Assembly: GCF_001571325.1 (NCBI RefSeq)
Contig: NZ_BCTO01000023.1
Location: 1 to 64,000 of the forward strand
Source: Delftia tsuruhatensis NBRC 16741
GTDB lineage: Bacteria > Pseudomonadota > Gammaproteobacteria > Burkholderiales > Burkholderiaceae_C
Reading direction: 5' to 3'
DNA: 64,000 nucleotides
The position numbers and the translations under genes are program-made. The notes below the pieces were generated by a model that had not been told where the DNA came from, searched no databases, and saw only the letters and a list, made by a program, of their open reading frames with translations. Below are positions 3,058 to 22,054 of the stretch, one piece after another. Every line of letters begins with the position of its first letter. Position 1 is the stretch's first letter.

Positions 3058-3111
3058 TGGCCTGCCCGGAGGGACTCGAACCCCCGACCTATTGCTTAGA
3101 AGGAAATTGCT
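3058..3111 (-). pseudogene. tRNA-Arg(UCU) 3' half left at attL
   Basis: On the minus strand this segment holds the anticodon loop with TCT, the 3' side of the anticodon stem, the variable loop, the T arm, the 3' acceptor strand CGGGCAG, a discriminator G and an encoded CCA. The 5' half lies at 22014-22054. The element DNA to the right of 3111 does not restore a D arm or 5' acceptor strand, so this is not a working tRNA gene. Joining both halves gives a canonical 77-nt cloverleaf with a perfect 7-bp acceptor stem. Confidence 0.9.
3094..3111. repeat. attL
   Basis: GCTTAGAAGGAAATTGCT matches attR at 22014-22031 in 17 of 18 positions. The one mismatch (3104 versus 22024) carries the element base here and the tRNA base in attR. 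Strand exchange therefore fell within the ten bases 3094-3103, which cover the 7-base anticodon loop, a typical crossover place for tyrosine integrases. Confidence 0.9.
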
Positions 3112-3212: not shown

Positions 3213-4412
3213 ATGAAAGAACTTTCTGTAATTAAGACAAACGTGGTGGGGGCTACGATTGTTCCTAGAGAGGGTAAAAAAGGGACTACCTATCAAGCCC
3301 GATTTTTGCGTGATGGCTTCCAGACTTCCAAGACATTCAAGACTCTTGATGAAGCCCAAGCATTCATTGTTGCTATCAATACCAGTCTCAAGAACAGAGA
3401 GCCTGTGAATCCTGCTTCTGTTGGTCGTTTGACACTTGGGCAAATCTTCTTGGACTACATCAGCAAGAATGAGTTAGGGCGTGAAGAACATAACAGAGTT
3501 GAGCGTCTTGCTGATGAACTAAAAGATGTTCCTCTTGAAAAATTTACAGAAGATAATTTTGAAAAATATCTTTTAGCGAAAAAAGATTCTTATGTTCCTG
3601 TTCCTTTGCACTATAAAAAGAAACATAAGAATTTCAATTCAAATAGAATCAATATTGATGGAATAGAGTATTACAATAAAAAGTATTCTTCAAGACATAT
3701 TAGATCAATATTTTTTAGTATTAAAAAGGCTTTGAAGTGGCACGCTAAAAAATATAAATATGCTTTTAATGAAACACCTTTTAAAGAAGTAAAGACCCCT
3801 TCCGCTTGGGAAAAACCAAGAACAAGAGAGGTTGAACCTTTTGAATTTGATGCATTGTTAGATGCAACAAATGGACTTTATAGGAATCAAGAGCAAACAA
3901 GAATTATGCTCAAATTCTTGTATCTTTCCGCTTTCCGAATTGGTGAAACAATGCTTATAAAATGGAAAGATTTTTATGATGGTGCAAAAGGTGTTGAAAA
4001 GAATCCTCTTGCTTCATACATTCATATACCAAAAGAAAACCAAAAAACAGGCCATCACGACGGTGTGAATGATAGAAAAGCAGCGTTGAGGCCAGAACTT
4101 TATAAATTGATTACAGAGGAATTGATAAAGTTCAAAACAAGTGATGATGATTTGATGTTTCCTTTTTGGAAAAATGCTCATTACTTTTATACAAGATTCA
4201 AATCATTGTGTGCAAAGAAAAAAATTGAAGGTCTTACATTGCACGATTTTAGGCATACAGCGGTTAGTTGGTTCTATACGAACACTTGGCTGACAGACTT
4301 AGAAATTATGAGCATTACAGGCCATCTAGACGCTAATACATTGCGCAGATATGCAAAGTTTAGAAGTTCTTCAATTGGTCATAAAATCTCCGTAGGTTTG
4401 AATAAAACTTGA
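3213..4412 (+). CDS. int: tyrosine recombinase integrase of the element
   Basis: A 399-aa phage-type site-specific recombinase that should integrate and excise this element at the tRNA-Arg(UCU) anticodon loop. Residues 1-60 resemble an arm-binding domain, about 70-180 the SAM-like core-binding domain, and 200-395 the catalytic domain. The catalytic set is visible: R242 in FRIGE, a lysine near 278, H344-x-x-R347 in LHDFRHT, H371 in TGHLD and the nucleophile Y380 in RRYAKF. The start at 3213 follows a GGAACTGAA stretch 102 bp inside attL. All key residues are present, so it looks functional. It is unrelated in detail to the broken P4 integrase at 2165-2898. Confidence 0.93.
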   Translation: MKELSVIKTNVVGATIVPREGKKGTTYQARFLRDGFQTSKTFKTLDEAQAFIVAINTSLKNREPVNPASVGRLTLGQIFLDYISKNELGREEHNRVERLADELKDVPLEKFTEDNFEKYLLAKKDSYVPVPLHYKKKHKNFNSNRINIDGIEYYNKKYSSRHIRSIFFSIKKALKWHAKKYKYAFNETPFKEVKTPSAWEKPRTREVEPFEFDALLDATNGLYRNQEQTRIMLKFLYLSAFRIGETMLIKWKDFYDGAKGVEKNPLASYIHIPKENQKTGHHDGVNDRKAALRPELYKLITEELIKFKTSDDDLMFPFWKNAHYFYTRFKSLCAKKKIEGLTLHDFRHTAVSWFYTNTWLTDLEIMSITGHLDANTLRRYAKFRSSSIGHKISVGLNKT

Positions 4413-4574: not shown

Positions 4575-5954
4575 TTAAAAATCAAAATCCATATCAATTT
4601 CTTTTTCTTTTTCTGCTGCAATTTGCTGAATTAAATTATTCTTCTTTTCTTCATAACTCGCAGTTTCTTGTGATAATTTATCTAATGAATTTCTTTTAGA
4701 AGAAGTTAATTCAACAATTTTATTTTGATGTTCTCTCTCCAATTCTTGAAGCATTTCTTCTGAATTTTTTAATTTTACTTCTGATGTTTTATTTGATTTC
4801 TGCCTATAACTCTTGCCAACTCCACCGGCCATTTTATTTAATGAACCTTTTGCAAAATTCCTTTCAAATTCTTTTCCACCCTTGTGACTTAAATTAATAT
4901 AATTGCCTTTTCTAAATTCTTTCAAATGCCCCGATTCTTTGAACTCTTTAAGAATTTGTTCACTTGATTTAGTTGAGTATTTACTTTCACTTAATGCATA
5001 AATTTTAAGAAGTTTTTCACTGATAAACCTAACATCTTTAAATACTTCCTTGAAATCTCTTGATTGCTCAATCTGACCTTTGGGTAAATCTGAAATTTTC
5101 TCTAACCCAAGACTAGACATTTTTTCTTGCCAGATTCCACGCAATTCATTTAAATCATAACTATGTTTTTTATTTCTTCTTGTGATTGCAATTTTTTGTT
5201 TTGCATAAGAAGAAGCATTTTCACCTGCCGCTGCATTTATGTCTTCACTTCTTTGTGAGAATGCTTTTCTTATTTCATCTGTTAATCCATTAACTTTAAA
5301 GTTATCTTTTCCATCATTTTCTATTTGAAGATTAAATTTATTCTGCAATCCTTTTGCTAATTCGCTTTGAAATACTTGGTCAAAGTAGTGCAATGTTTCT
5401 TGAAGTTTAGTTGCATCCCCACCTTTTTCTGTTGGTAATTCTTTTAATGTATGTTTGTAAAGTTTTCCATCTTTGCCCATACATAAAGGACTAATAACAA
5501 TATGGCTGTGTTTATGGCAATCTGGAACATCACCAACAGACCTTGCTGTGTGGTGATCATAAATTGCAACCTTTATTCCTTCCGCTCTAACATATGTAGT
5601 TTTTCCATTTACCGTTTTTCTGTAATAAGTATTGTTTTCTATAGCGTCAACAGTATTAAATATTGCATCCCTCCAAATCTTATCAAAAAATTTTCTTTCT
5701 TCATCTGTTGCTCTATTTTCTAATATCGTCCAATCTTTAGGAGGTGCTGGAGTTAATTCTATTCCTTGATTTTTTTCATCATCACCCATCATTTTATGCA
5801 ATGATTCTGTAGTCGTATTGGTTCCATAAGAACCGTCCCTAATTGACATTTTTCCAGCAAAAAAGCCTCTTTTATTATCCCCTTCTGAATTGTATTCATC
5901 TTTTGTATGCTTATCCAAATAGTCAGATTTTTTATTATTTGCAAATCCTATCAT
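4575..5954 (-). CDS. MobF (TrwC/TraI)-type relaxase without helicase domain
   Basis: A 459-aa protein with the layout of the TrwC relaxase domain. It has N-terminal tyrosines in the usual region (Y12, Y21), the histidine-rich metal site (DHHTAR near 134 and CHKHSH at 146-151, the HUH motif), then DGKLYKHT and a KAFSQRSEDI segment found in MobF relaxases. It should nick one strand at oriT and pilot it into the recipient. MobF relaxases usually continue into a helicase of several hundred residues. Here the last 130 residues are charged and coiled-coil-like, so unwinding must come from elsewhere. It is last in the leftward operon, 18 bp after the coupling protein. Confidence 0.82.
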   Translation of the reverse strand: MIGFANNKKSDYLDKHTKDEYNSEGDNKRGFFAGKMSIRDGSYGTNTTTESLHKMMGDDEKNQGIELTPAPPKDWTILENRATDEERKFFDKIWRDAIFNTVDAIENNTYYRKTVNGKTTYVRAEGIKVAIYDHHTARSVGDVPDCHKHSHIVISPLCMGKDGKLYKHTLKELPTEKGGDATKLQETLHYFDQVFQSELAKGLQNKFNLQIENDGKDNFKVNGLTDEIRKAFSQRSEDINAAAGENASSYAKQKIAITRRNKKHSYDLNELRGIWQEKMSSLGLEKISDLPKGQIEQSRDFKEVFKDVRFISEKLLKIYALSESKYSTKSSEQILKEFKESGHLKEFRKGNYINLSHKGGKEFERNFAKGSLNKMAGGVGKSYRQKSNKTSEVKLKNSEEMLQELEREHQNKIVELTSSKRNSLDKLSQETASYEEKKNNLIQQIAAEKEKEIDMDFDF

Positions 5955-5972: not shown

Positions 5973-8048
5973 TTATTCTTTTGTATCCATTATATTAAGC
6001 ATTGCTTCAAGATCATCTGATGGATTTACTATTGATGTTTCTTGAAGTTCCTCAATCTCTAGGCCGTCTGCTTGATTGATTTCCTCTTGAAGTTGTTCAG
6101 CCTCCGGGCTGTCCACTTGGGATACCAACTCAACCAGTTCAGGAGCCACCAAATCGGGGCTAGGCGCGATTTCTTGGGCCTGGCTAGGTGTTGGCACATC
6201 TTGAACAATTTCTTGTGTTTCTGTGGCTTCTAGTGCGTTCTGTGCCCTAGTTCTCTTTTTTAATCTAGCCAATTTATTTTTGTGCTTCTTTTGAAGTTCA
6301 GAAACATCAACAGGAGTTCTTATAAAAGTAAATACTTCTTCATATCCTTGAATGAAGTAATACATTTGAACCCCCAAGAACTTTTCATTTCTTAATTTTG
6401 CACCGCAATTTAAAGATAGTTCATTAGGTTTCATTACCTCTATATCGTGAACCTTTTTTTCAAAAACAGATGAAAATTTTCCATTTTCCTGCATTGTTTT
6501 TTTGATTAAAGTATCTTCAACAGTTGTTTTTCCAATTGTTTCTTTAATCAATGAAAAATCGGCTTCTGTCATTCTTCCCAAAACTTTATTGTGAAAAGCA
6601 GAATAAAAATTTAGTGGGTCTGCATTGAAGTTTTCTTTTATTTGTGCAAATCGTTGCAAAGCAACAATGCAGCGTATTCCTTTTGAACGTCCAACGTCTG
6701 GAAGTTTTAAAAAGGTTTCAATATCAACTGATGTAAGTTGAGGAAATTCATCAATTACAAAATATACTTTTCTTTTAAAAGGATTTGTATAATTTGGAGA
6801 AACAAGGAATCTTGAAGAAAGATTAATGATTGCAGAAATATAAGAATTACAAACATCTGCCTGATTGGGATTGTTTGTGAGAACTAAAAATTTTCTTGCT
6901 TTTTCTTTTAGTAGAAAATCTTCTTTAATATCTATGTGTCTTGCATCTTTCCAAAAATCTGCCAATATTTGAAATTTTTTAATGACGTTAATGCAAGAAG
7001 CAATAACAGACATTGTTGCTTTTGGATTGTCTGGATTGATATATGCAGCCGCTGCAGGATTGTGAGTCATTAAATAAGTATTTAAATCTCTTATTTGCTG
7101 CTCCGGTTCTTTGCTGAATAAATAAACAATAGAAATAAGAAATATGTTTGCCTCTGGATTGAATGAAAGAACTTCTTGAATTAATGCTCTAATAACTTCA
7201 ATTGCACCTAAAATAAAATAATCATCATTCTTTTGCTTTGGCAAAAATGCTCTTACAAATGTATAGATGTTTTGTATTTCAAGATTTTTATCTTCATCTT
7301 TTATTAATGCAACAAAATTAATTGCGTGAATAGTTTCATCTTTTAAAGATGTGACGGCAATGTTATAGACTTGAGAAAAAGAAGAAACAAAATCTAATTC
7401 ATCGCCTTTAGTATTATGAACAATGGAAATACTATTTTTTGTTAACGCTATATCTTTGTAAAAATGATTTATGATTACTGATTTACCTGAACCCGCGTCA
7501 CCTGCAATAATCAATCCTTTTTCTTGACAAGCAACAGAATAATATTGACTTACATTTAATGGTTTTTCCGTTATAACTGATAAATCATTTGGTTTAACAA
7601 TTGTTATTCCTTCATTCTTTGGAAATCCCGATGTTTTATTGAAATGTGATTCATATCTTTGAATTACATTCTCTTCATTGTTTACAGTTCTTCCAGATTT
7701 ATAAACTCTTCTTGTTACTGGTTTTGTTATTAATTTAACAACCGTTAAAGATAGAGCCAATGGGATAAATATTGATAAGTAAAAACTTATCATCAACGTT
7801 TCTATTTTCTTAGTTCCATAAATTAATTGAGTTAAATAAATCATCCCTTCTCTATCTTTTGTGAAAAGATTCCAAATTATTTTTGGAATCGCTTCAAAAT
7901 GATTGTTGAAAAGAAATGAAATAACAGGAAGTGAGAAAAGAATGAAAAATAGAAGTGTATTTGTAAAAATACTTCTAATATAAATTCTTGGAACTTCTGG
8001 AGTTAATTTATCATCGTGGAATGGGCTTTGAATTATTCTTGTTTTCAT
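5973..8048 (-). CDS. VirD4/TrwB-type conjugative coupling ATPase (T4CP)
   Basis: A 691-aa inner-membrane protein that links the relaxosome to a type IV secretion channel. Membrane segments are at about residues 28-48 and 83-105, followed by the cytoplasmic ATPase. Walker A is GDAGSGKS (183-190) and Walker B VYFVIDEF (428-435). The stretch around DVGRSKGIRCIVALQRFAQI matches the TraD/TrwB pattern. The tail from about 610 is rich in Glu, Gln and Val with repeated ELQE-like segments and may be an acidic docking tail. Its ATG overlaps the stop of the 50-aa gene before it (ATGA), indicating translational coupling. A T4CP paired with a MobF relaxase is the expected match. Confidence 0.88.
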   Translation of the reverse strand: MKTRIIQSPFHDDKLTPEVPRIYIRSIFTNTLLFFILFSLPVISFLFNNHFEAIPKIIWNLFTKDREGMIYLTQLIYGTKKIETLMISFYLSIFIPLALSLTVVKLITKPVTRRVYKSGRTVNNEENVIQRYESHFNKTSGFPKNEGITIVKPNDLSVITEKPLNVSQYYSVACQEKGLIIAGDAGSGKSVIINHFYKDIALTKNSISIVHNTKGDELDFVSSFSQVYNIAVTSLKDETIHAINFVALIKDEDKNLEIQNIYTFVRAFLPKQKNDDYFILGAIEVIRALIQEVLSFNPEANIFLISIVYLFSKEPEQQIRDLNTYLMTHNPAAAAYINPDNPKATMSVIASCINVIKKFQILADFWKDARHIDIKEDFLLKEKARKFLVLTNNPNQADVCNSYISAIINLSSRFLVSPNYTNPFKRKVYFVIDEFPQLTSVDIETFLKLPDVGRSKGIRCIVALQRFAQIKENFNADPLNFYSAFHNKVLGRMTEADFSLIKETIGKTTVEDTLIKKTMQENGKFSSVFEKKVHDIEVMKPNELSLNCGAKLRNEKFLGVQMYYFIQGYEEVFTFIRTPVDVSELQKKHKNKLARLKKRTRAQNALEATETQEIVQDVPTPSQAQEIAPSPDLVAPELVELVSQVDSPEAEQLQEEINQADGLEIEELQETSIVNPSDDLEAMLNIMDTKE

Positions 8049-12122: not shown

Positions 12123-12920
12123 TTAAGCCGCTTTTTTAAATACATCATCCAACATTGAAATTACTTTATTTGCATTGATTCTAAAATTTGGATTATTTAT
12201 TGATTTTGATTCAATATCTATGTTTGCAATAAAAACCATTTGATTTTTTGCAATGGAAAATTCAGTAATAATATTTTTTGCTTCTACAATAATTTTTCCA
12301 AGTGGTTTAACGTGAAGAAAACTATTTAAAAGAACTTGAAAAAATGCAATTTTTGCCAAATCTTCATCAATATCAACCATATAGACATCTATTGATTGAT
12401 AGTGCGCGTCTGTAAATCCTTCAATATTCTTTAATTTTTGAAGTGAAGCAAGAATTAAAGAACCTGCTCCACACCCTCCAGGGTCAGAAATAACTTTACG
12501 TTTTTTCTCTTCAAACTCTTCAATTGATGAAGATGAATAAATCAAAGTTGCAAGCAATTTTGATACATCATTTGGCGTAAAATATTGACTTAAACGCTTA
12601 TTAGAACTTTCATTTTCCTCAATAAAATTACTCATCAAATCATTGAATGCATCATCTTCTTTGATTACTTTAATCAAAAGATGCCCTAAATCATTAATTT
12701 CATTATGAAATTTTTTTAGAATTTCTTTTTTTACATGAATAGGCCCATAAGAATAGTTCATTGGCTGAACAATGCAATTTGTTGCTTCCAGCATCTTAAA
12801 TGCAACTTGATAAATCAAAGAAATAGTTCTTGTTTCCTTAACACCCTCATTGTGAAATTTATTAATAATATTTGATAGATGTTTAAAAAATGTCTGCTTA
12901 TTGGTCAATTCTTTCTTCAT
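12123..12920 (-). CDS. N6-adenine methyltransferase-like protein lacking the catalytic motif
   Basis: 265 aa. It contains the segment QYFTPNDVSKLLATL and a SAM-binding loop SDPGGCGAGSL, both typical of HsdM/N6_Mtase proteins (usually DPACGSG), and an acidic strand end YMVDIDEDLA. The catalytic (N/D)PP(Y/F) motif expected 50-100 residues later is not present; the region reads VFIANIDIESKS instead. The fold is therefore likely kept but methylation is doubtful. Related proteins occur on plasmids and phages as anti-restriction or orphan methylases. Transcribed as a single unit leftward; no specificity or restriction subunit lies nearby. Confidence 0.65.
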   Translation of the reverse strand: MKKELTNKQTFFKHLSNIINKFHNEGVKETRTISLIYQVAFKMLEATNCIVQPMNYSYGPIHVKKEILKKFHNEINDLGHLLIKVIKEDDAFNDLMSNFIEENESSNKRLSQYFTPNDVSKLLATLIYSSSSIEEFEEKKRKVISDPGGCGAGSLILASLQKLKNIEGFTDAHYQSIDVYMVDIDEDLAKIAFFQVLLNSFLHVKPLGKIIVEAKNIITEFSIAKNQMVFIANIDIESKSINNPNFRINANKVISMLDDVFKKAA

Positions 12921-15429: not shown

Positions 15430-18111
15430 ATGAAAAAAATAATTATTTATGTATACGCTTTATTGTTTAGCACTTTTGCAAGTGCAGAAAGCATTTTCAC
15501 TCATCCACCAACTGATAAGTTAGACCAAATTTTCGGTGCAATGTTTGGTGGCCTTGGTGTCTTTGGCACGAATGGCTCAAATCCATTTACTGCGCAACTG
15601 CAAGTTTTAAATGAAGCATTGTTAGTATTTGCAGGAATTATCACTGCATATCTTGTATTGAACTGGATAATAAAAACAGCACACGAAGGAGAAACAGGAA
15701 AAACTGCAGCGGGAGCGTGGCACTTAATTAGATATGTTATTGCCTGCGCTTCAATTATTCCTGTGCCAACATTAAATGGTTATACAACTGCTCAACTTCT
15801 TGTAGCAAAACCTATAAGTATTGGAATTTCTTTTGCTTATAACACTGCAAACTATGCATTTAATGCTACTTCAATGAAAGAGATTGCTACATCAAACCTT
15901 TCATTGCAAAAAGTTGATAGTGTTGCTCACAATCTATTTTTAAGTGCTGTTTGTGTTAATGCTTATGAAGATTTTTATAAGCAAAATACTTTTGCAAATT
16001 CTTCTGGGAATCAAGTTCCAAAATTTGGCATAACAACAGAAAAAGGAATATTTACAGATGATATTCACTTTGGACAAGTTAGCAAATTTGGACAATACGA
16101 AAAAGACACTTGCGGAACTTATTCAATTCATCGTTATGAGTCAAATAGAAGAGTAGTTAAAGGCTCTAATTATGATAGTGATGTAATTGATGGTTTGATT
16201 AGTGTAAACAATGGAAAACTTGCTGCTAAATTATTTAATGATGTTAATAAATTAGCAAAAGAATTTATGACAAAAAGAGACCTTGCAACATATCAAAAAG
16301 CAATTGATGCAGGGGCTGAATATAGTAAGAACTCAAGAGAATACGCATTCAATCTAGTTAAGAATGATACGAAAATTGAACAAATGCTTAACGCTGTAAA
16401 AGTAGATGGTTCTTTATATGTCGGCGCTTACTATATGAGAATCACTGATTTGCAATCAAAAACCAATGCTGCAATTGCAAGAATCCCGTCTGCAACAGGC
16501 ATAAAAAAGATTGATCCATCTTTATCTAGTGAGATTTTTTCGCAATATATCCAGCCGATCAATGGATATGTGAATCAATTAAATTCTCCAATGGCAACTT
16601 TTGGAATTAACACAATAAATGGAAATCAAGATTCTAGTTGGTGGGAAGGTATTAAAGCAAGTGTAAAAGGTGACCCGAATGTTATTTTAAAGAAGATGAT
16701 TTCATCTGGAACTGAACCATTTATTTTTAATGAAAAAGACAATCTTGTAACTTCTATGCAATCATTAGGTGCATGGGCATTAGCTTTTACTGCCGCGTTA
16801 ACAATGACAACTGGCTTTATTGTTTTATTCTTTGGAATTCACAATGGGGTTACGGCATTTTCAATGCATGTTTTAGAATTGTTTGGAACTCCTTTAGGAA
16901 TTTTTGGTAGTGCTCTTTTATTTATCACACCTATGATTCCATTTTATGTTTATATTGGAGCAATGATTACTTGGATATGTTCAGCAACTGCAACAATATT
17001 AATTGCAAACTTTATTCCTGTTTGCATGATGTTTGCGGGCAGTAATTCAATGGGGCAAGCATCAAATGCATTTAAACAATTATTATCTATTGTCTTTAAA
17101 CCTTCATTGTTAGTTATTTCATTCACTGCGGCAATTGTTTTAACTAATTTATTAGGTCAAGCAATAATGCCAATTTTTATGAGTGTTTGGAACTTATCAC
17201 AGGACAATTCAAGCATTGTTACTTATTTATTTTCATTATTATTTATGATTGCTTCTTATTCCTTATTTGGTTCATATTTGATTCTTCAAATTAATTTAAT
17301 TTGCCATAAATTACCAGACCAAATGATTAGTTTTTTAGGCGGAAGCGGTACGATTATGTCCGGTGAAGCAAGTTCATTCGGTGCTGCTGGTGGCTCATTT
17401 GCAGGCGGTTTGGCCGGTGGTGCGATAGGTTCATCAATTAAGAGCCTGGATGAAATGAGGAAGAAAAATGAAGAAATGGATGAAAAAGGGTCTACAAGCG
17501 CTTTAAAGAACAAAGCAATGGGTAACACTAGCCCAAGCGGTTCGGGCGATTCTGGGGCCTCTGGTGGCGTTGCAGGTAGAGGAAAGAATGCTAATTCTTT
17601 ATCTTCTGCAATGAATGCAAGTTCTGCAGGTGATTCTTCCGATAATGAATTAGATGCAGATAATGAAAACAAGCATAGTTTTGAAGATTTCAATATTGAT
17701 GATTATGAAGATTTAAATAAATCAACAAAAGATAATCAACATTTTGAACCATACCAAAGTGCTTATGATGCTTTTAAAAATGAAAATCCTAACGCAACTG
17801 AAACAGAAGCAAAGTTTTATGCAACTGATAGTGCTATAAGTTGGAAATATGGTGCAGGCGCTGGAAAGGCTGTTGCTGCTGCTGGTGGTGGTTCTTACAA
17901 TAATGACGATGCAAAATTTCTTTATAAAATGTATGACACTGCTTCAATTTCAAATTTTAAAAGAAGTGAATTAAAAAACATTTCAAAAGAAATTAATGAC
18001 AATAATTTAAAGGGAGATGAAGCATTGCAATCATTCTCCAAAAATTTTGCAAAAATCCAAAATAAAAAGATTGAAGAATATAAAAATGAAAGTAATGGTT
18101 TTTCTGAATAA
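15430..18111 (+). CDS. traY: DotA/TraY-family inner-membrane T4SS protein
   Basis: 893 aa. A signal peptide (residues 1-19, ending TFASA) is followed by the family's N-terminal pattern: FGAMFGGLGVFG, two spans (about 57-80 and 98-117) around a conserved loop IIKTAHEGETGK. A large periplasmic domain (about 130-440) comes next, then several spans between about 440 and 640. The tail from 650 is Gly/Ser/Asp-rich. DotA (Legionella) and TraY (IncI) are large polytopic components of IcmB/IcmC-type T4SS. In IncI plasmids TraY is the target recognised by the exclusion protein ExcA. It stands alone here with the IcmV/TraX-like gene, without the rest of the apparatus. The 18128 terminator ends the operon. 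Confidence 0.82.
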   Translation: MKKIIIYVYALLFSTFASAESIFTHPPTDKLDQIFGAMFGGLGVFGTNGSNPFTAQLQVLNEALLVFAGIITAYLVLNWIIKTAHEGETGKTAAGAWHLIRYVIACASIIPVPTLNGYTTAQLLVAKPISIGISFAYNTANYAFNATSMKEIATSNLSLQKVDSVAHNLFLSAVCVNAYEDFYKQNTFANSSGNQVPKFGITTEKGIFTDDIHFGQVSKFGQYEKDTCGTYSIHRYESNRRVVKGSNYDSDVIDGLISVNNGKLAAKLFNDVNKLAKEFMTKRDLATYQKAIDAGAEYSKNSREYAFNLVKNDTKIEQMLNAVKVDGSLYVGAYYMRITDLQSKTNAAIARIPSATGIKKIDPSLSSEIFSQYIQPINGYVNQLNSPMATFGINTINGNQDSSWWEGIKASVKGDPNVILKKMISSGTEPFIFNEKDNLVTSMQSLGAWALAFTAALTMTTGFIVLFFGIHNGVTAFSMHVLELFGTPLGIFGSALLFITPMIPFYVYIGAMITWICSATATILIANFIPVCMMFAGSNSMGQASNAFKQLLSIVFKPSLLVISFTAAIVLTNLLGQAIMPIFMSVWNLSQDNSSIVTYLFSLLFMIASYSLFGSYLILQINLICHKLPDQMISFLGGSGTIMSGEASSFGAAGGSFAGGLAGGAIGSSIKSLDEMRKKNEEMDEKGSTSALKNKAMGNTSPSGSGDSGASGGVAGRGKNANSLSSAMNASSAGDSSDNELDADNENKHSFEDFNIDDYEDLNKSTKDNQHFEPYQSAYDAFKNENPNATETEAKFYATDSAISWKYGAGAGKAVAAAGGGSYNNDDAKFLYKMYDTASISNFKRSELKNISKEINDNNLKGDEALQSFSKNFAKIQNKKIEEYKNESNGFSE

Positions 18112-20656: not shown

Positions 20657-20926
20657 TTACTCTCCTTTTTCTTCTTTATACTTATATTCAATTGTTTTTT
20701 GCTTATTTTTTAAGTTATTTTTAATTCTCTGTCTTATTGATTTCATCTGGAAATCTTTAAGATAGTTAGATACAGTCTTTTGAGAAACACCTAACTTATT
20801 TGCAATCTCTTGCTGCGTTAAGTTTTCATTCAAATACATATCTAAAGCAATTGATTGATTGGCTTGTCTATTAAAGTTTTTTGCGTTTGCAAGACCTGCT
20901 TTTTTTGCTCTATCACTTTTATTCAT
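20657..20926 (-). CDS. helix-turn-helix regulator (89 aa)
   Basis: Residues 30-58 (NENLTQQEIANKLGVSQKTVSNYLKDF) are a clear helix-turn-helix of the sigma-region-4/ParB-tail type. The flanks are basic (MNKSDRAKKAGLANAKNFNRQ at the start, RQRIKNNLKNKQK after the motif). It is first in a four-gene leftward block and has its own promoter (20960-20984) with a TTCTAATAGAA palindrome at the -10. Relatives of that palindrome occur upstream of other element genes (9867, 10235, 12068). It is a good candidate for the element's own regulator. Confidence 0.7.
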   Translation of the reverse strand: MNKSDRAKKAGLANAKNFNRQANQSIALDMYLNENLTQQEIANKLGVSQKTVSNYLKDFQMKSIRQRIKNNLKNKQKTIEYKYKEEKGE

Positions 20927-21139: not shown

Positions 21140-21628
21140 TTAAACTGTTCTTTTTTTCTTCTTGATTACATCATTCTTTGAAATTTTAGATAGTTCTTTT
21201 ATTAGTTCTTTTTCTCTTTGTTCTCTTTGATGAACTTCTAAACTATCGCGTAAAGATACAAGTAAGTTTGCTTCTTTTGTAATCTTTTCTAGCAATGTTG
21301 AGAATGTGAAGAGATGAGATAGATTCTTCACTGGTGCGTTTGTTCTGCTTCCAGTAGCAACAGGCTTCAATGCTTGTGTTTGTGCTGCTGTGGCCTGTTC
21401 TGGTGCGTTCTGTGACCCATCTAACAGATGTTTAGCAACATCGTGGATAGAGTAGAAGATACTACGACCCATGTTCTTAAACGGAATCGGGAAGTCTCCG
21501 CGTTTTCTTAGAACACATTGCTGCTTTGCACTCACACCAACAACTTTTTCAAGTTGGGCCGGGGTCATCACTTCTTTGTTATCTGTGAGATTGCGCAGAT
21601 AAGAAAGCAAGTTTTCATAAGTGTTCAT
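21140..21628 (-). CDS. AlpA/MerR-like helix-turn-helix protein, likely excisionase
   Basis: 162 aa from ATG 21628, chosen over an upstream ATG at 21715 because GCAGGAGGAAC lies just before it and the upstream start lies inside the tRNA. Residues 20-60 (TPAQLEKVVGVSAKQQCVLRK, then PFKNMGRSIFYSIHDV) follow the AlpA/excisionase pattern: a winged helix with an arginine before the wing. The middle is a Gln/Ala/Thr linker and the end a basic coiled coil (KKKKRTV). Location at the right end, beside attR, fits a recombination directionality factor. A replication or transcription regulator is the alternative. Confidence 0.62.
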   Translation of the reverse strand: MNTYENLLSYLRNLTDNKEVMTPAQLEKVVGVSAKQQCVLRKRGDFPIPFKNMGRSIFYSIHDVAKHLLDGSQNAPEQATAAQTQALKPVATGSRTNAPVKNLSHLFTFSTLLEKITKEANLLVSLRDSLEVHQREQREKELIKELSKISKNDVIKKKKRTV

Positions 21629-21661: not shown

Positions 21662-21680
21662 AGCACCTGGAGGTGCTGTT
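21662..21680. terminator. terminator hairpin between the tRNA and the excisionase-like gene
   Basis: AGCACCT-GG-AGGTGCT (21662-21677) with an A-run to its left (T-run on the minus strand). It should end the tRNA transcript. Confidence 0.75.
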
Positions 21681-21688
21681 TTAGTGTG

Positions 21689-21765
21689 TGGTGCCCCGTA
21701 GTGGATTCGAACCACTGACCTACGGTGTAGAAGACCGCTGCTCTATCCAGCTGAGCTAACGAGGC
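21689..21765 (-). tRNA. tRNA-Arg(UCU) carried by the element
   Basis: Reads leftward as a complete 77-nt cloverleaf: acceptor GCCTCGT/ACGGGGC, D stem GCTC/GAGC, anticodon stem GCGGT/ACCGT, anticodon loop CTTCTAC (TCT), T stem AGTGG/CCACT with loop TTCGAAT, discriminator A and encoded CCA. It decodes AGA and, by wobble, AGG. Its sequence differs clearly from the split host tRNA-Arg(UCU), so it is not a duplicate of it. It lies 250 bp inside attR. It replaces the host gene destroyed by the insertion and would also serve the AGA-rich genes of the element. Confidence 0.95.
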
Positions 21766-21876
21766 GTTTATGCTATTGCAATGATAGCGTAATTTTAGGT
21801 CAACAGTCTACATTAGCAAACTCAAAATTGTTGACTTAAAATTGTGGTTAATCTGCTATCGATTCCTTTGGATTCC

Positions 21877-21917
21877 TTGGGAAAGTTTTTGGGAAAAACT
21901 GCACGGAATTGGGAAGA
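21877..21917. promoter_or_regulatory. candidate integrase arm-type sites, right end
   Basis: Three copies of the TTGGGAA core (21877-21884, 21887-21896, 21909-21915) within 40 bp, matching the two copies inside attL. The block 21841-21950 is also rich in GGAATTC/GGATTC phrases that may be Xis or integrase sites. Otherwise 21766-22013 holds nothing recognisable. Confidence 0.5.
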
Positions 21918-22013
21918 ATTCAGAGGAATTCAAAGGGATTCTGCTATCTTTTTTTTATCCTAAATCTCTTTAAAATCAATGCCTTACAGAGACTTCAAAA
22001 CAATTTATTGACG

Positions 22014-22031
22014 GCTTAGAAGGCAATTGCT
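22014..22031. repeat. attR
   Basis: GCTTAGAAGGCAATTGCT, 17/18 identical to attL 3094-3111. It has the tRNA base at the mismatch position. Confidence 0.9.
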
Positions 22032-22054
22032 CTATCCGGTTGAGCTACGGGCAG
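22014..22054 (-). pseudogene. tRNA-Arg(UCU) 5' half left at attR
   Basis: Minus strand from 22054: acceptor 5' strand CTGCCCG, D arm GCTC/GAGC and the 5' side of the anticodon arm up to the crossover. The element DNA that follows does not provide a T arm or 3' acceptor, so a transcript from the native tRNA promoter would be a truncated fragment. It pairs with 3058-3111. Confidence 0.9.

Follow-up and report, generated by a model that had tools for sequence, protein, structure and literature searches.

An integrative element of Delftia tsuruhatensis inserted in a host tRNA-Arg(UCU) gene and carrying a complete tRNA of the same anticodon

The dependence of lysogeny on a phage-carried tRNA has been proven experimentally in mycobacteriophages, with mutants in phage Fionnbharth (Guerrero-Bustamante and Hatfull, 2024, PMC10865867), and the authors of that study raised the question of how common tRNA-dependent lysogeny is outside the actinobacteriophages. 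Phage Daredevil, described in the same work, breaks a tRNA gene and carries no tRNA (PMC10865867). Canonical tDNA islands inserted at subsite A, the anticodon loop (Islander, PMC4383910), have a tyrosine integrase and an anticodon-centred crossover, as does the element described here; however, Islander-type islands carry the missing end of the tRNA and restore the gene, whereas here the target tRNA is restored nowhere. Searches built on the restored-tRNA signature, such as Islander, should therefore miss elements of this kind.

The window—that is, the whole stretch of 64,000 nucleotides from D. tsuruhatensis NBRC 16741 that was analyzed—contains an apparent integrative mobilizable element that very probably breaks the single tRNA-Arg(UCU) gene of its host, supplies a tRNA-Arg(UCU) of its own, and thereby binds the host to it. 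The insertion site, the carried tRNA, and related loci in other genomes are described below.

Broken host gene and carried tRNA in the window

The element measures 18,920 bp (18.9 kb) from core to core, and its GC content is 31%, compared with 59–69% in the flanks (Table 1). The only sequence common to both ends is the 10-bp core, GCTTAGAAGG. When rejoined, the two host halves form a 77-nt tRNA that is identical at 77/77 positions to the intact tRNA-Arg(UCU) of three genomes of the same genus (G014, G022, and G036), and a fourth genome (G061) shares both this gene and, at 96% identity, the right flank found in the window; these intact sister genes identify the empty insertion site. According to the preliminary description, the host gene is destroyed by a crossover within the anticodon loop, with neither junction rebuilding it. 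This account was borne out: both halves are broken, the core lies over the loop, and neither ARAGORN nor Rfam detected a tRNA at the attL or attR junction in the window. Recognition of an anticodon stem-loop was reportedly the subject of a study on Acidithiobacillus elements. Just outside attL, at 2290–2898 (−), the sequence reads as a fragment like the N-terminal part of a P4-type integrase, which suggests an older island 3′ of the same tRNA.

Table 1. Features of the element and of its insertion site, in window coordinates.
Feature	Position	Strand	Basis
attL: 3′ half of host tRNA-Arg(UCU)	3058..3103	−	Encoded CCA ends at 3058; identity to intact sister-species tRNAs
10-bp core GCTTAGAAGG at attL, over anticodon loop	3094..3103		
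Tyrosine integrase, 399 aa, adjoins attL	3213..4412	+	Pfam PF00589 E 3e-13; phrog_1 integrase E 8e-30; relatives
MobF/TrwC-type relaxase	4575..5954	−	PF08751 E 6e-33; NF041492 MobF 103 bits, cut-off 100
VirD4/TraD-type coupling protein	5973..8048	−	PF10412 E 1e-22
N-6 DNA methylase-like protein (cargo)	12123..12920	−	PF02384 E 2e-9
DotA/TraY-family membrane protein	15430..18111	+	TIGR04346 211 bits, cut-off 100
Excisionase/AlpA-like regulator	21140..21628	−	phrog_66 E 3e-6; homologues beside tRNA in G306, G397, G403
Terminator-like hairpin and T run just 3′ of substitute tRNA	21662..21677	−	Similar hairpin in G005, G015
Substitute tRNA-Arg(UCU), 77 nt including encoded CCA	21689..21765	−	ARAGORN, Rfam
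Sigma70-like promoter candidate for substitute tRNA, TAGACT-18-TATCAT	21781..21810	−	Consensus match only
10-bp core GCTTAGAAGG at attR, over anticodon loop	22014..22023		
attR: 5′ half of host tRNA-Arg(UCU)	22014..22054	−	Identity to intact sister-species tRNAs

The single tRNA detected by ARAGORN in the whole window is the substitute, with an Rfam tRNA score of 67.4 bits (cut-off 29). It lies 248 bp inside attR, in agreement with the earlier report of a complete, divergent tRNA-Arg(UCU) with CCA about 250 bp from that end. The excisionase/AlpA-like gene adjoins it, with the terminator-like hairpin between the two, and the same neighbourhood is found in the CCU-carrying relatives described below; the promoter-like site also occurs upstream of the corresponding tRNA in a congener, G015. 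The anticodon loop of the substitute reads CUUCUAC, as compared with the ordinary CUUCUAA. Shielding of the substitute from the element's own integrase by this altered loop was considered and rejected, since the substitutes of the CCU relatives keep the 9-bp core.

Among the 51 tRNA matches in the host genome, ARAGORN assigned the UCU anticodon solely to the element's tRNA, which agrees with the host having no other UCU isoacceptor; because the assembly is a draft of 135 contigs that yielded no tRNA-Ala, -Asp, -Glu, or -Ile, this count is strong but short of final, and a second UCU gene could sit in a gap. Across the genus, a pattern search recovered a single UCU gene of the usual kind from each genome that yielded any. 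Three genomes (G013, G031, and G067) contain an additional, odd UCU-type tRNA with a TTCTA anticodon region (GCTGAATTCTAGTCAG; L190 in G013, G013:C1:3909484), perhaps carried by another mobile element. The same search found no UCU tRNA in G003, at one locus of which (L194, right end of G003:C8) the 3′ end of a tRNA, broken off in the T loop, stands beside the homologous flank gene, with the contig end nearby.

With respect to gene content, no phage structural protein was found among the 17 ORFs scanned, the phage-type matches being those of the integrase, the excisionase-like protein, and general HTH or methylase families. An 89-aa HTH protein at 20657–20926 matches many HTH families weakly, terminase small subunits included. 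Instead of the genes of a temperate phage, the element encodes a coupling protein and a DotA/TraY protein, the only transfer apparatus recognized, as well as a MobF relaxase; several ORFs are unassigned. With an integrase and a relaxase inside defined att sites, as expected of an integrative mobilizable element, this designation appears to be the best label.

CCU-carrying relatives and remnants in congeners

Nine related integrases were found in other Betaproteobacteria—Diaphorobacter caeni, Comamonadaceae OS-4, Acidovorax SUPP3334, Deefgea salmonis, Duganella qianjiadongensis, Pseudoduganella danionis, Zoogloea LCSB751, and two metagenome-assembled genomes—with approximately 37–38% identity to that of the window (measured for three of them). 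All nine elements carry a tRNA-Arg(CCU) at the place equivalent to that of the UCU substitute. Furthermore, eight of these nine elements split the host tRNA-Arg(CCU) in the anticodon loop, leaving both halves broken, and have a complete CCU tRNA approximately 250–330 bp from attR. The seven elements with both ends measured span 10.7–25.6 kb. The two systems together comprise at least three distinct substitute sequences, and the carried anticodon is in each system the broken one: UCU for a broken UCU gene in the window, and CCU for a broken CCU gene in the relatives. Such a recurrence of the same layout with another anticodon pair in independent relatives makes coincidence very unlikely. The view that a full substitute is carried in place of canonical restoration of the target is thus sustained both directly by the window and by these CCU-for-CCU relatives.

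The CCU substitutes are identical at 75/75 or 74/75 positions within one type (seven elements) and at 76/76 within a second (two elements), their flanks are 58–99% identical, and the host halves vary by host; judged from these sequences, the substitute tRNA is under purifying selection. The CCU tRNA is oriented relative to the element in the direction opposite to that of the window's UCU tRNA, has the ordinary anticodon loop CUCCUAA, and is accompanied in eight of the nine elements by a promoter-like sequence, TTGTCT-18-TATAGT/TACAGT. The set of mobilization genes is not constant: the element of Deefgea encodes an MbeA-like relaxase and a NikA/MobC-like protein, along with a restriction-modification system of the TdeIII type. 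The cargo of this 11-kb element (L161:2290–4587) comprises a TdeIII-type restriction enzyme and a C5 methyltransferase. The CCU-type integrase showed no relative among plasmids, and a single distant match was obtained among viral contigs.

The remaining CCU element, that of P. danionis, used another site, inside a transposase-like sequence, which has left the tRNA-Arg(CCU) gene of the host intact elsewhere; this genome is a natural control. The proposition that the host CCU gene is always missing where a CCU element is present was dropped on account of this intact gene, which had been missed by the strict pattern search, a method that can overlook host CCU genes.

Elements of 84 kb in Burkholderia stagnalis (L148–L151 and L165–L166) and 81 kb in Cupriavidus pauculus (L152–L154 and L167–L168), with integrases sharing 48–49% identity with the CCU type, split the host CCU gene just as the CCU-carrying elements do. 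No tRNA was detected inside either element by ARAGORN or Rfam, and no further CCU gene was found in either genome by pattern search, indicating that a broken tRNA does not need a substitute in every case and that the partnership is not universal. The codon AGG can also be read by tRNA-Arg(UCU) via wobble. In principle, therefore, a cell could probably do without the CCU gene, whereas the UCU gene has no such backup. The contrast between these two elements and the UCU element resembles the case of Daredevil, in which a tRNA is broken and no substitute is carried (PMC10865867).

Two congeners, G005 and G015, have the same type of UCU substitute. G005 contains a related element in a different neighbouring sequence, with a UCU tRNA identical to that of the window at 77/77 positions and the host halves split, on two contigs. 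In the near-complete genome of G015, IS-like sequence truncates both the integrase, of which a short N-terminal piece remains, and the regulator, but the UCU tRNA is intact, with three differences from that of the window, two of which constitute a compensated pair in the acceptor stem (C2-G71 to U2-A71). The host 3′ half in G015 contains CAGTTCAGAAGG and TTTGATCCC, as compared with CAGCTTAGAAGG and TTCGATCCC in the intact genes of related species; these changes, in the T loop and the anticodon loop, indicate that the host remnant is decaying. G015 can thus be regarded as the fossil of a permanent tRNA replacement, in which the tRNA has outlived the genes of the element, and it is consistent with the predicted harm of losing the substitute.

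G001 is related to G015 (80% in the neighbouring gene) and has, in ordinary host sequence, a UCU tRNA identical to that of G015 (77/77), with no tRNA found at the usual UCU locus; the substitute may have come from G001 or have settled there later. At another locus of G015 (L134, G015:C1:553550), an AT-rich tRNA-Arg(CCU) of unusual sequence is followed by an AGCACCT...AGGTGCT terminator-like hairpin, as in the element tRNAs, and possibly represents a second, older replacement.

Alternative readings and proposed mechanism

AGA had been described as the favourite arginine codon of the element, and the counts agree, with AGA accounting for 110 of 153 arginine codons (72%) in the element versus 6 of 733 (<1%) in host ORFs. 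On this ground, the tRNA could be taken for a codon-supply gene of an AGA-rich element, the break in the host gene being coincidental. We regard this as improbable, given that the CCU-type elements carry a reader of AGG even though AGG makes up 250 of their 1423 arginine codons against 383 for AGA, that the anticodon carried matches the one broken in both systems despite the distinct substitute sequences, and that the tRNA in G015 survives beyond the element genes. AGA supply is at most a side benefit, since the tRNA of the CCU relatives does not read their favourite arginine codon. It is very improbable that the tRNA is mainly a variant resisting anticodon nucleases or other tRNA-targeting defences, a role that would fit the altered loop of the UCU substitute and the reported escape of loop-changed phage tRNAs from anticodon nucleases (van den Berg, 2023, as cited in PMC11476347); the CCU substitutes retain an ordinary loop, and resistance of this kind predicts no match between the carried tRNA and the broken host gene.

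Finally, the insertion might be a damaging accident that is tolerated, either because loss of the UCU gene is bearable or because another one lies in an assembly gap, with the carried tRNA having no special role. Both the draft state of the assembly, with its missing tRNA isotypes, and the absence of a substitute from the two elements of B. stagnalis and C. pauculus would suit such an accident, to which we nevertheless assign next to no probability: matched substitutes recur across several families of Betaproteobacteria, the tRNA shows purifying selection, and G015 provides a fossil, all of which argue for a role.

For the preferred reading, in which the element breaks the host gene and replaces it, the insertion site, the core, the destruction of the gene, the cognate substitute, the purifying selection on it, and its persistence after decay can be read from the DNA, and the later steps are proposed. 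The tyrosine integrase recombines a core of approximately 10 bp with the single tRNA-Arg(UCU) gene of the host at its anticodon loop, and integration destroys that gene because attP contains no tRNA half. The element tRNA, which evidently forms a unit of its own between a promoter-like site and a terminator-like hairpin, would be expressed, charged, and able to take over AGA decoding, allowing integrants to survive. Clean excision would, judging from the junctions, join the halves and regain the host gene, and loss of the substitute in any other way would leave no AGA reader in the cell, which would make the tRNA essential and the element addictive. Lacking any other AGA reader, the host would stay tied to this tRNA gene also once the remainder of the element had decayed, as in G015.

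Relation to known systems

These findings suggest that the disruption and replacement of a host tRNA is no phage peculiarity and represents a general means by which integrative elements establish themselves in single-copy genes. Such a process would offer a route for the horizontal replacement of essential tRNA genes, an outcome seen in the fossil, and it makes a testable prediction, namely addiction without a toxin. More tentatively, and with slightly more doubt than confidence, we propose that a family of non-phage elements takes single-copy tRNA genes hostage by design, changes its integrase target and the tRNA that matches it as a pair (UCU or CCU), and leaves essential tRNA genes of the host permanently replaced when its members die, some "native" tRNA genes (perhaps that of G001) being derived from mobile elements.

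Like the systems of tRNA-dependent lysogeny (phages Fionnbharth, Gabriela, Mollymur, and Gaia; PMC10865867), the element has a tyrosine integrase, an attB in a tRNA gene with the site in the anticodon loop, which is common in those phages, a short core (approximately 8–17 bp in the phages and 10 bp here), no tRNA rebuilt at attL or attR, and a cognate tRNA of its own. The defining features of tRNA-dependent lysogeny thus appear to be present except for the phage carrier, with essentiality of the substitute predicted. However, those systems are temperate phages that infect Actinobacteria and target Lys-UUU, Ile2-CAU, or Leu-CAA (PMC10865867), whereas those described here are relaxase-encoding elements of Betaproteobacteria with Arg-UCU or Arg-CCU targets, one of them decayed with its tRNA kept. 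In the phage-related sequence at tRNA-Leu(UAG) of S. meliloti (PMC11476347), likewise a proteobacterium, the target has lost its function and the inserted sequence provides, in its place, a divergent tRNA with the same anticodon, as in the window; that case differs in having been described as an intact prophage similar to Mesorhizobium phage Lo5R7ANS, with a single target and no fossil evidence. According to the citation in PMC10865867, Lj965 of Lactobacillus johnsonii likewise encodes a cognate tRNA for one that its integration fails to rebuild; it differs in being a prophage, and in a Firmicute. Overall, the principle is already published as tRNA-dependent lysogeny (PMC10865867) and is not unprecedented. 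Subject to a possible earlier account for conjugative elements in subscription journals, which lay outside the search, what is new here is the relaxase-bearing, non-phage class of element, its arginine tRNA targets, and the fossil of a permanent replacement.
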